From an uncultured Acidobacteriota bacterium (GTDB taxonomy: Bacteria > Acidobacteriota > UBA6911 > CAINFC01), in NCBI GenBank assembly GCA_903847975.1, contig CAINFC010000275.1:1-64000 (forward strand): a stretch of 64,000 bases of DNA, read 5' to 3'. The notes under the pieces are model-generated. The model had not been told where the DNA came from, ran no database searches, and worked only from the letters and a program-made list of their open reading frames with translations. A program made the position numbers and the translations under genes. Positions 11,137-44,998 of this stretch are shown piece after piece (position 1 is the first letter of the stretch; the number at the start of each line of letters is the position of its first letter).

Positions 11137-11177
11137 AGTTTGCTCCTGTCCTGCTTAATTGCCAACAAGTCTTCTGA

Positions 11178-11200
11178 AGGGGTGCCTGCCAGGCGCCCCT
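11178..11200. repeat. Short GC-rich palindrome, copy 1
   Basis: AGGGGTGCCTG and CAGGCGCCCCT form an 11-base stem with one G-T pair and a single-base centre. Similar palindromes occur at 17538-17558 and 17806-17822. This copy lies in the predicted DUF3300 leader, between the promoter and the start codon. Confidence 0.55.
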
Positions 11201-11222
11201 ATAGGGAACGGTATCAAGAGCA

Positions 11223-11237
11223 GCATTTATCGTGCCA
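11223..11237 (-). promoter_or_regulatory. Sigma-54 type promoter for the DUF3300/DUF2950 operon
   Basis: On the minus strand it reads TGGCACGATAAATGC, with GG and GC separated by ten bases. This is very close to the -24/-12 consensus (TGGCACG then TTGCW). Predicted transcription begins near 11211, leaving a leader of about 75 bases. It is about 100 bases from the two-arm element. Confidence 0.75.
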
Positions 11238-11335
11238 GGAGCATCGGGCCGCAAAGCCGGTCGCTAAGCCTTTTGGAATTAAAGGAATTAACGTGCCGGA
11301 CTATAGAATTTTTTGGTATGGCAGTGGAATTGCGG

Positions 11336-11367
11336 AGCGGCCCGTCGTTTCCGGAACGAAATATCGC
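11336..11367. promoter_or_regulatory. Two-arm palindromic activator site shared by divergent promoters
   Basis: Arm A is ACGAAATATCGC (11356-11367) and arm B is AGCGGCCCGTCGTT (11336-11349), six bases apart, in minus orientation. The same pair recurs at four other places in the window. The -24 boxes of the two flanking promoters lie about 99 and 101 bases from its two ends, the kind of distance used by enhancer-binding activators. Confidence 0.65.
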
Positions 11368-11467
11368 CCGTTAAAAGGCGATGGAACCTGGCAGGAGGGT
11401 CTGCCGGTCTCCCGAAAAATACTCTGTTGTTGAGACTTAAGCGATCGGCAACACGTTTGCACCCTTC

Positions 11468-11482
11468 TGGCATTCATCGTGC
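11468..11482 (+). promoter_or_regulatory. Sigma-54 type promoter for porin/glutaminase
   Basis: It reads TGGCATTCATCGTGC, with GG-N10-GC spacing, 101 bases from the two-arm element. Predicted transcription starts near 11494, giving a leader of about 187 bases before the porin ATG. Confidence 0.65.
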
Positions 11483-11680
11483 TAGTTCCTCCGTGATCCG
11501 AATATTGGAAAGGCAAATTGTACGTGTCACGAAAACGGGTTGGTGCAGGGCAGAACGGCGTCCTTCCATATCTGTTATGTGAAAATGGAATTTCCTTGAG
11601 CCGCAAGAACGACAAGAACAACAAGAACAAACGGTGACATCTTGTCCTTTCGGCATACGTTCCGGCACCCAGGGAGGGCC

Positions 11681-40094: not shown

Positions 40095-41540
40095 ATGAAG
40101 ATGCGCAAGGATTCCGTTTTTTTCCTTTTTTGCCTGCTTTTCCTGGCGGCAGTGCCTGTCCTGCGGGCCTCGGAGGATCCGGAAGTGATCGAGCTTCGCC
40201 GGCGTGTGGCGGAACTCGAAAAGCAGAACCAGCAGATCCTGCAAATGTTGCAGGAATTGAAAGCGCGCCTGCCGGAAAAGCAGGCGGCAGCTGCCTCGCC
40301 GGTTCCCCGCCCGTCCGAACCGGCACGCCCGGGTGAATCCCAGGCTCCGGCCAAACCGCCTGCCCCTTCCGCCTTGGCCGTGGTCGCAACTCCTCCCGCC
40401 GCCAAGGCTGCGGACGATACGGTTCGCTGGGCGGAACTGACCTCCTCGCCGAGCCACCTCAAATTCTACGGTTTCCTGCGGGTGGATAACGTCGTGGACG
40501 ACTCCCGGATGAACAACCCACAAAGTGTCATGTGGGTGCTGCCCGAAGACCGTGCTGCCGGCTCGGCAGACCTCGCCAACTTTACCCTTTATCCTCGGCT
40601 CACCCGGTTTGGCATCAACTTTTCCGGTCCGATGGTCGCCGCGCTGGGAAACGCCAAATTAAGCGGGCAGCTGGAAATCGACTTCCAGAATGGCGGCTCC
40701 GAATCCCGACCCACCCCCCGGATCCGGCACGGCTGGCTCAAATTGACTAAAGGGAATTTCGCATTTCTGGGTGGGCAGACCTGGGATATCTTCGGCCCAC
40801 TTTTTCCGACTCCCAATACCGATACCCTGATGTGGAACGTGGGAAATGTCGGCGACCGCCGGCCTCAGCTGCAGGCCACTTACAGCCCTCAGGCGGGCAA
40901 AGGCCAGTTCCTGCTGGCCGGATCGGTTGGCCTCTCCAGCGCCGTGGACGCCATGGACCTGGACGCCAACGGCTATCGGGATGGCGAGGAATCGGCGCGG
41001 CCCAATGTGGAGGCCCGCTTCGGATACGCTCACCCCATTCGCTCCGGCGGGCCCAAGGTCAGCGTTGGTTTTTCCGGGTTCCGGGGTTGGCAGAGCACAA
41101 CCAGACTGATTGCCGGCCGCCGGCAGTTCTACTCGCAGGGACTGGCGGCTGATTTTGAAATTCCTTTCCATGACAGGATTGCGCTCCGGGGGGAAGGCTG
41201 GTGGGGGCGCAACATGAGCGACTTTCGCGGCGGTATCGGGCAGAATATCAACACGGCAACCGGCGTGGCAATCCGCAGCCGCGGAGGCTGGGCGGAGTTC
41301 CATTTCAAGGCCCACAGGCTTTGGACCCTCGCACCGGGTTACACCCTGGATGACCCGGTCGATCAGGATGTCGCTTCCGGCGGGCGTATCCGCAACGGCA
41401 GCTTGTATTTTGCCAACCGCCTCAGCCTGGGGGGCGGATTTCTGATTGGCGCCGATTACCTGCACTGGATAACGAGTTATAAGAACCTGCCTCAGGGAAC
41501 GGACAATCGTGTCAACATCTTCTTCCAATACTCCTTTTAA
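40095..41540 (+). CDS. DcaP-like porin with N-terminal coiled coil
   Basis: The protein has 481 residues; AAGGAGG precedes the ATG. The signal peptide ends near VPVLRASEDP. A coiled coil follows (VIELRRRVAELEKQNQQILQ, about 30-60), then an Ala/Pro-rich linker and a beta-barrel from about 115 to the terminal FFQYSF with a final aromatic residue, as required for barrel insertion. SHLKFYGFLRVDNVVDDSRM, TRFGINFSGP and AFLGGQTWDIFGPLFP mark the DcaP-like family, which forms trimers with an N-terminal stalk. Its own promoter is not clear. No two-arm element is found upstream. The cargo is unknown. Confidence 0.85.
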   Translation: MKMRKDSVFFLFCLLFLAAVPVLRASEDPEVIELRRRVAELEKQNQQILQMLQELKARLPEKQAAAASPVPRPSEPARPGESQAPAKPPAPSALAVVATPPAAKAADDTVRWAELTSSPSHLKFYGFLRVDNVVDDSRMNNPQSVMWVLPEDRAAGSADLANFTLYPRLTRFGINFSGPMVAALGNAKLSGQLEIDFQNGGSESRPTPRIRHGWLKLTKGNFAFLGGQTWDIFGPLFPTPNTDTLMWNVGNVGDRRPQLQATYSPQAGKGQFLLAGSVGLSSAVDAMDLDANGYRDGEESARPNVEARFGYAHPIRSGGPKVSVGFSGFRGWQSTTRLIAGRRQFYSQGLAADFEIPFHDRIALRGEGWWGRNMSDFRGGIGQNINTATGVAIRSRGGWAEFHFKAHRLWTLAPGYTLDDPVDQDVASGGRIRNGSLYFANRLSLGGGFLIGADYLHWITSYKNLPQGTDNRVNIFFQYSF

Positions 41541-41707: not shown

Positions 41708-41722
41708 TGGCATGAATTGTGC
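41708..41722 (+). promoter_or_regulatory. Sigma-54 type promoter for sortase/LPKTG genes
   Basis: It reads TGGCATGAATTGTGC with GG-N10-GC spacing. Predicted transcription starts near 41734, about 100 bases before the sortase ATG. Confidence 0.7.
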
Positions 41723-41837
41723 TTTTTCTCGACAGGTGCATTTGCATCTCGCCGAAAGCAGGCGAAAAAAACGATGGTTGAGAATGGGATAAAAACAGCA
41801 TCCGCCCCCAGCGGTCGGCTGCTGCCGGTCCGGTACG

Positions 41838-42578
41838 GTGTTTGACAATATGCATCAGGAGAGTGACTCGTCGGCACAAAGCGAAAAGAGTACGACCGCC
41901 GGATCCTCCTTCCGCCAAACCGGCTCGAGAATACCAAAGCGAACGCTGCGATATCTTGAGACGGTTCTGCTGGCGGCCGGATTGACACTCCTGGCTATTT
42001 TTATCGTGTTTCGTCTGGACGGCATCATCGGCAGCCGGGTGGCTTTATGGATGTTTGAGGCTCGAAAAAGCCTCGGCCCGGAGAGCGGCGGGAACCGCAG
42101 CCCGAGTGCGGATAAAGGCGTGGATTTCAGCCTGTGGTCGGATGAGCGCATCGAGGCTTATCGCCAGAGCCTGGCCGCCCGGTTTACGGCCCCCGTGGCA
42201 CTGCTGGCCATTCCCAAGCTGGCTCTCAAGGTTCCGGTGTTCGAAGGGACCGAAGAGCCGGTTCTGAACCGGGGCGTGGGATGGATTCAGCAAACCGCCC
42301 GGCCGGGAGAAGCGGGGAACGTAGGCATTGCGGGTCACCGGGACGGGTTCTTCCGCTGTCTGAAGGATATTCAGATCGGCGACCGTATTGAGCTGGTGAC
42401 GCCGAACGGGAAGAAGACCTACCGTGTGGACGACATGGACATTGTTTTTCCGGAAAATGTCGGTGTGCTGGCTCCCAGGCGAAATCCGGCGCTGACGCTG
42501 GTCACCTGCTATCCGTTTTACTACATCGGGAGCGCTCCGCAGCGATTCATTGTACATGCATCCACCACAGAATTTTAA
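41838..42578 (+). CDS. Sortase, class D-like, in a diderm
   Basis: A transpeptidase of 246 residues cutting LPXTG-type sorting signals. A single N-terminal membrane helix (about 38-60, VLLAAGLTLLAIFIVFRL) anchors it. The catalytic residues are H167 (IAGHRDGFF), C224 (LVTCYPFYYIG) and R236 (QRFIVHA). VPVFEGTEEPVLNRGVGWI and the short TCYPF motif fit the class D group and the related sortases of Gram-negative bacteria. The gene 68 bases downstream encodes a protein with an LPKTG sorting signal, which is very likely its substrate. What the substrate is joined to cannot be read from the sequence. Transcription is probably from the sigma-54 type promoter at 41708. Confidence 0.92.
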   Translation: MFDNMHQESDSSAQSEKSTTAGSSFRQTGSRIPKRTLRYLETVLLAAGLTLLAIFIVFRLDGIIGSRVALWMFEARKSLGPESGGNRSPSADKGVDFSLWSDERIEAYRQSLAARFTAPVALLAIPKLALKVPVFEGTEEPVLNRGVGWIQQTARPGEAGNVGIAGHRDGFFRCLKDIQIGDRIELVTPNGKKTYRVDDMDIVFPENVGVLAPRRNPALTLVTCYPFYYIGSAPQRFIVHASTTEF

Positions 42579-42646
42579 TCGGATTCCCGGAAAATGATTC
42601 CGGACGTGAAGGAAGTCGAACCAACCAACCAACAGGAGGGCACAAA

Positions 42647-43456
42647 ATGCGTTTCATGACCACTTGGAAATTTCAGCCGGCCGCGGGAGCGGTTCTATGG
42701 CTGGCGTGCACCGCGATGATGTTGGCTCAAGTCCAGCAAACCACTACGGAGCAGAAAGGGCAGGCGTCCCGGCAGGTTACGGTAGAACGGGGGGAAGTTG
42801 TTTATATCTCCGGCAACGAGGTCATCTTCAAGATGGAAAGCGGCGAAGTACGGCATGTTACGGTTCCGGATAATGCCAAAGCCATCGTGGACGGCAAGGA
42901 GATCACCCTCAAGGACCTGCAGGTGGGAATGAAGCTGGAAAAAACAATTACTACCACCAGCCGGCCGAAGACGGTGGAAACCGTCCGGGCCGGTACGGGA
43001 ACCGTAGTCAATGTCCAGGCTCCCAATTATGTGACCGTGCGGTTCGAGGATGACTCGGTTTCTCGCTACAAGATTCCGAAAGACCAGAAATTCATGATCG
43101 ACGGACAGGCCAAGACCGCATTCGAACTGAAGCCGGGGATGAAAATCACCGCGACTCGTGTCGTAACCGTGCCGGTGGTGGAAGTTTCGCAGCAGAGCCA
43201 GGTGACCGGCAGCGCCCCGCCGCCGCCGCCGCCCCCGCCCACCCCGCCCATGGACGGCGCCCTTCTGATCCTGGAAAAAGTAGCCAAACCTGAACCGGTA
43301 GCGGCGGCCGTATCCAGGGAAGCGGCTCCCGCCCCGGCCCCGTCGCCGGCCCCGGAGAAGCTGCCGAAAACCGGCAGCGCGATGCCTTGGATCGGATTGT
43401 TGGGCCTGTTGTGCACGGGCCTCTCCTTCGGGCTGAGGCGTCTTCGCCGATATTAA
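42647..43456 (+). CDS. Exported protein with LPKTG sorting signal
   Basis: The protein has 269 residues. AGGAGGG precedes the ATG. A signal peptide ends near MMLAQVQQ. The mature part has two similar beta-rich segments (EVVYISGNEVIFKMESGEVR and TGTVVNVQAPNYVTVRFEDD) that look like tandem small-barrel repeats, then a Pro-rich stretch (eight consecutive Pro near 195-205) and a Pro/Ala-rich spacer. The end is a textbook cell-wall sorting signal: L239-P-K-T-G243, a hydrophobic helix (WIGLLGLLCTGLSFGL) and a basic tail RRLRRY. It directly follows a sortase gene. The Pro-rich spacer suggests that the repeat region is held away from its anchor. Function unknown. Confidence 0.88.
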   Translation: MRFMTTWKFQPAAGAVLWLACTAMMLAQVQQTTTEQKGQASRQVTVERGEVVYISGNEVIFKMESGEVRHVTVPDNAKAIVDGKEITLKDLQVGMKLEKTITTTSRPKTVETVRAGTGTVVNVQAPNYVTVRFEDDSVSRYKIPKDQKFMIDGQAKTAFELKPGMKITATRVVTVPVVEVSQQSQVTGSAPPPPPPPPTPPMDGALLILEKVAKPEPVAAAVSREAAPAPAPSPAPEKLPKTGSAMPWIGLLGLLCTGLSFGLRRLRRY

Positions 43457-44983: not shown

Positions 44984-44998
44984 TGGCATGAAAAATGC
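44984..44998 (+). promoter_or_regulatory. Sigma-54 type promoter for 45119/DUF481 genes
   Basis: It reads TGGCATGAAAAATGC with GG-N10-GC spacing. Predicted transcription starts near 45010. Confidence 0.65.

Follow-up and report, generated by a model that had tools for sequence, protein, structure and literature searches.

A class D-like sortase and two probable LPKTG-tailed substrates in a diderm acidobacterium

Sortases are regarded as a hallmark of Gram-positive cell walls, which raises the question of what such an enzyme would do in a bacterium with an outer membrane. The question is posed by a locus from an uncultured member of the Acidobacteriota, where a predicted sortase gene is followed by a gene whose product ends in an LPKTG sorting signal. 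Both genes lie on the forward strand of the window, by which we mean the whole 64,000-nucleotide stretch of contig CAINFC010000275.1 that was analysed. That the host is a diderm, as a sequence-only reading of the window had proposed, is borne out by the genome, which encodes POTRA-containing proteins of the BamA type and LptD. Neither this module nor the products of Acidobacteriota sortases were the subject of any study returned by full-text searches of open-licence papers, and no characterized sortase product from a diderm was found in the open-licence literature searched. Sortases of Gram-negative bacteria are already known; this particular module appears to be undescribed.

Anatomy of the sortase and its LPKTG-tailed neighbour

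The upstream gene (41838..42578) begins with a GTG codon and encodes a protein of 246 amino acids that matches the sortase profiles PF04203 (E=1e-30, 106.5 bits against a cut-off of 26.6) and TIGR01076 (77.7 bits against a cut-off of 39.35). It is the sole PF04203 match in the whole 8.13-Mb, 99%-complete genome. An AlphaFold model, with pLDDT values mostly of 93-98 across the catalytic barrel, adopts the sortase beta-barrel fold, as judged by comparison with solved sortases using VIA-align (3re9 at Z 22.0, rmsd 1.6, 128 residues aligned). One N-terminal membrane helix (approximately residues 38-60, 41949..42017), predicted from hydrophobicity and contained within a model helix spanning residues 34-79, precedes the predicted periplasmic catalytic domain. 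The catalytic residues named in the sequence-only reading are all in place, namely His167 (codon 42336..42338, context GIAGHRDGFF), Cys224 (42507..42509, TLVTCYPFYY) and Arg236 (42543..42545, SAPQRFIVHA), each of them invariant among 46 aligned sortases.

The second gene (42647..43456) follows after a gap of 68 bp that includes the Shine-Dalgarno sequence AGGAGG (42634..42639), whose context is similar in the paralogue described below. Its 269-amino-acid product carries every element that had been described for it: a signal peptide, repeats, a Pro-rich spacer and an LPKTG-helix-RRLRRY tail. The signal peptide comprises residues 1-27 (42647..42727), with a model helix at residues 6-25 and an Ala27 that is invariant in the alignment. 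The ectodomain (approximately residues 41-190, 42767..43216) is modelled as two OB-like beta modules, a region that includes a long central strand. A Pro/Ala-rich linker (approximately residues 190-245 in the model, 43217..43360), predicted to be disordered with pLDDT mostly 53-68 past residue 200, leads to the LPKTG motif at residues 239-243 (43361..43375), and the protein ends with a hydrophobic helix and the basic C-terminus RRLRRY, a predicted membrane stop (43376..43453) that coincides with model helix 246-268 and is covered by a profile match. The complete tail reads LPKTGSAMPWIGLLGLLCTGLSFGLRRLRRY. Among 10 aligned homologues the linker drifts while LPKT stays invariant, and homologues of the protein adjoin sortases. 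The motif, hydrophobic helix, basic C-terminus and signal peptide expected of an LPXTG protein are all present, and the LPXTG anchor profile TIGR01167 scores 21.4 bits, above its cut-off of 15.9; PF00746 reaches 18.9 bits, just under its cut-off of 20.

The ectodomain belongs to no Pfam or NCBIfam family. A comparison of 48 members of its family, referred to below as the R type, against Pfam gave no convincing match, and the weak ones include CusF and DUF1344, which we take to be small beta-barrel families. Structural comparison of the ectodomain gave EF-P as the best match (Z 6.6, 62 residues aligned, rmsd 2.6), and proteasomal-ATPase OB domains were also among the matches (Z up to 6.6), values that fall in the range of common arrangements. 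A Foldseek search with the whole substrate model was discarded as meaningless, since its sole match at E<0.001 has an rmsd of 19.9. An Rfam search of the window yielded no match.

The sequence-only reading had called sortase and substrate a dedicated pair and had proposed a check for other LPXTG-tailed proteins in the genome. One was found. A tail profile built from 20 tails of the phylum recovers exactly two substrates from the genome (E 2.3e-16 for the window protein and 6e-15 for the other, with the next-best match at 0.1), and a protein search places the second on the same contig at 70491-71288, outside the window, where it encodes a paralogue that is 78-79% identical and ends LPKTGSAMPLFGLLGLLFTGASLGIRLLRRR. 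This copy (C275:70491-71288, which is L101:8492-9289) has no adjoining sortase. Because the genome holds exactly two such tails and one sortase, the system consists of a single sortase and two probable LPKTG substrates; the pairing of the sortase with a probable cognate substrate stands, and its exclusivity is lost to the paralogue. Substitution rates between the two genes are dN 0.15 and dS 1.09 overall (dN/dS ~0.14) and dN 0.065 and dS 0.82 within the ectodomains (dN/dS 0.08), and the string LPKTGSAMP is identical in both. Both copies appear to have been kept under purifying selection.

A genome scan with the generic TIGR01167 profile recovers the window protein, marks four further sites and misses the true second substrate. 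The best of its extra matches, an ORF of 63 amino acids adjoining Tad-pilus-like genes (G000:C208:63480-63578, L024), ends with APETGSDS, a membrane helix and RRKRK; it was rejected as a substrate, as it lacks both an LPXTG motif and any ectodomain.

Distribution, substrate types and sortase class

The pair is conserved across the phylum, as the sequence-only reading had asked to be checked. Among 396 Acidobacteriota genomes, 82 encode a sortase and 54 carry a tail that matches our profile. Every one of the 54 belongs to the 82, and the 314 genomes that lack a sortase have no such tail. The hypergeometric probability of this nesting is 4e-46, a significance that is inflated by the shared ancestry of the genomes, and the nesting is complete (36/36) after the genomes that seeded the profile are dropped. 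The remaining 28 of the 82 sortase genomes have no profile-matching tail, and other tail types, such as class GN-like targets, explain some of these. Most tails (56 of 73) have a sortase no more than 3 kb away, and the remainder are dispersed. One genome (G017) combines four dispersed tails with a sortase that has no adjacent target, and from such dispersed tails it seems that one-to-many use of a sortase also occurs.

A search for relatives of the sortase in named genomes gave 479 loci. At the best 80 of these, 57 of 80 sortase genes adjoin an ORF that lies on the same strand and encodes a tail of the LPx[TS][GA] type, compared with 6 such tails in 1254 other ORFs of the same loci. The hosts are mostly Acidobacteriota, joined by some Myxococcaceae, Lysobacterales and other Gammaproteobacteria and by single bins labelled otherwise. 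Edaphobacter aggregans DSM 19364 and E. modestus DSM 18101 carry the module, and Granulicella paludicola DSM 22464 carries it with a variant tail. Past the pair itself, comparison across relatives revealed no convincing conserved neighbours. The earlier description of such pairs as rare in Gram-negative bacteria was too strong, given their frequency in this phylum, the six sortases counted in Ca. Solibacter (PMC3174227), and the class GN sortase/LPXTG cassettes of Gram-negative, marine proteobacterial origin reported previously (PMC3237569). Judging from these genomes, sortase-plus-target modules are an old and conserved feature of these diderms.

Profiles divide the substrates into two types: R, which has a pair of OB-like repeats and includes the window protein, and P, characterized by the pattern VPG..LPAGTYVFKL. 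In a tree of 129 sortases, many of whose forks are poorly supported owing to the short domain, the R labels cluster, requiring 10 changes versus 42.7 when shuffled (0 of 500 shuffles as low). By this measure, ectodomain type tracks sortase clade. A Sulfotelmatobacter subclade within the R clade carries P-type (LPAGTY) ectodomains at seven loci, which constitutes a swap.

Some R proteins stop right after the ectodomain and have no tail, for example two in one genome (G266) and one in another (G149), each of which also carries a tailed R copy. Tail-less R ectodomain proteins were observed at five loci, including L142:3038-3583, and two share a genome with a tailed copy. Since such proteins exist, the tail is, on comparative grounds, an optional, removable suffix, as is known for LPXTG and PEP-CTERM proteins (PMC3237569). 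Granulicella-type R substrates (three loci) end in LP[ELS]AGTNLPL rather than LPxT[GA], which suggests that their sortases, found in one clade starred in the tree, have changed motif specificity.

By profile, the window sortase is nearest to class D, the class of B. anthracis SrtD/SrtC and C. perfringens SrtD. Its top two NCBIfam matches are SrtD (NF058671) at 136.6 bits and class D (NF033746) at 127.5 bits, both of which are under the respective cut-offs of 140 and 165; both profiles are also matched by every one of the 46 relatives scanned. The nearest solved structure by sequence, 2ln7 (E=9e-21), is also of class D. LPxT[GA] motifs are common to class D and the Acidobacteriota module, and the C. 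perfringens SrtD gene likewise shares an operon with a gene for an LPQTGS-tailed protein (PMC4498605). Unlike class D, however, the module resides in diderms, its substrates bring their own ectodomain, OB-like or other, and most R-type substrates terminate in LPKT[GA]S.

Class GN resembles the module in that the sortase lies beside its only LPXTG target, a vWA/VIT protein (PMC3237569). The window sortase scores only 88.4 bits with the class GN profile TIGR03784, against a cut-off of 158.25, and its 269-amino-acid neighbour has a different ectodomain with no vWA/VIT match. LPXTG targets of >600 amino acids do occur in the phylum, and they adjoin a separate sortase clade (L043-L050 in the tree) that we read as class GN-like. 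The exosortase/PEP-CTERM and rhombosortase/GlyGly-CTERM systems of Gram-negative bacteria use the same tripartite tail of motif, helix and basic end (PMC1569441, PMC3237569), although their enzymes are non-homologous and their motifs different. We therefore describe the sortase as class D-like by profile and distinct from class GN, and file it in no class.

A candidate sigma-54-type promoter

The sequence-only reading had also placed the module under a sigma-54-type regulon. A -24/-12-like site on the forward strand, TGGCATGAATTGTGCT (41708..41723), ends 114 bp before the sortase start and is a candidate promoter. It ranks second among the sites of the window at 13.2 bits (p=0.004 when the upstream 300 bp are shuffled), and the genome encodes RpoN. 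Over the whole window the consensus shows no excess (24 matches versus 28 expected), a test that was diluted; restriction to 4,097 bp of intergenic sequence reversed the outcome, with 11 sites scoring >10 versus 1.1 expected and a maximum of 5 in dinucleotide shuffles, where the matrix weights followed the general consensus and the gaps were picked by the author from ORF calls. Five matches occupy a single gap (11137-11641), flanked by genes for a DUF3300 protein and a DcaP-type porin.

No similar site precedes the paralogue or any of 77 related sortase genes, and a genome-wide search with an 18-mer sigma-54-like pattern returned only the 41708-41723 site itself without mismatch. Quasi-palindromic intergenic sites (TGGCAT...ATGCC-like) at 44984, 47969 and 49912 resemble the site before the sortase, and because of this symmetry they may be targets of another regulator rather than sigma-54 promoters. 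Control by sigma-54 is thus a plausible, weakly supported lead: the candidate site, the intergenic enrichment and RpoN speak for it, whereas the site is not conserved and no activator was identified.

Probable attachment to peptidoglycan and its alternatives

We consider it probable that the locus encodes a functional diderm sorting system in which LPKTG is cleaved, the product is likely anchored to peptidoglycan, and one sortase serves two paralogues. This view draws on protein anatomy, genomic coupling, conservation, the association of sortase clade with ectodomain and purifying selection, from which we infer the cleavage, the peptidoglycan acceptor and the role of the ectodomain. Following established sortase chemistry and this anatomy, the Sec pathway would export the substrate, whose tail helix would keep it lodged in the inner membrane. 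The sortase, itself a membrane-anchored enzyme with C224 as the nucleophile together with H167 and R236, would then cut LPKT^G between T242 and G243 at the periplasmic face, and the acyl-enzyme would transfer the substrate to an amino group. The genome encodes the DAP epimerase DapF, so the amine of meso-diaminopimelate is available, and because B. anthracis SrtD, an enzyme of the class D that this sortase resembles, anchors to peptidoglycan (PMC4498605), diaminopimelate in lipid II or nascent peptidoglycan would be the likeliest acceptor. The two OB-like modules would thereby be fixed to the sacculus through a flexible Pro-rich arm that leaves them free within the periplasm, and the single sortase would serve both LPKTG paralogues.

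We give a distinctly smaller chance to a system in which LPKTG is cleaved and the acceptor is water (making the enzyme a release protease), a lipid, a polysaccharide or another envelope protein, such that the substrate would be soluble or bound elsewhere. Class C sortases demonstrate that non-wall amines can serve as acceptors, the sequence holds no readable acceptor signature, and the tail-less ectodomain proteins of related genomes suggest that a soluble periplasmic form is tolerated. However, both the epimerase and the precedent of SrtD in the class nearest by profile argue for peptidoglycan. Display of the processed substrate outside the outer membrane, or its assembly into a pilin-like polymer, seems improbable. 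In its favour, the sortase substrates of Gram-positive bacteria are found on the cell surface, and the module has a porin-like gene upstream (40095-41540). Against it, the genome has no second sortase, the operon encodes no second, pilin-like protein, and, bar one weak match, other pairs lack such a porin in their neighbourhood.

It is slightly less probable still that the module was recently acquired or is decaying, with an unprocessed tail that acts as a mere inner-membrane anchor. At 0.67, the sortase gene has a GC3 slightly under that of neighbouring genes (0.69-0.80), yet the GC content of the module (58.9%) matches that of the window (59.5%) and homologous pairs are spread over many families of the phylum, so that recent transfer, a concern of the sequence-only reading, is rejected. 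The paralogue dN/dS values, well below 1, likewise speak against decay.

We regard this as a real, old sorting system whose presumed chemistry is ordinary and whose setting is poorly understood. Its compact form, its conservation over many families and its presence in named strains make the acceptor question directly testable, and the substrate ectodomain constitutes a sizeable family with no Pfam or NCBIfam entry. We suggest only tentatively, and with more doubt than confidence, that the module represents a hitherto undescribed class of diderm sortases together with a new family of substrates, in which tandem OB-like modules are covalently mounted on thin periplasmic peptidoglycan. If this proves true, the substrates may perhaps tether the sacculus to the outer membrane or to a polysaccharide, in parallel to Braun-type lipoproteins.
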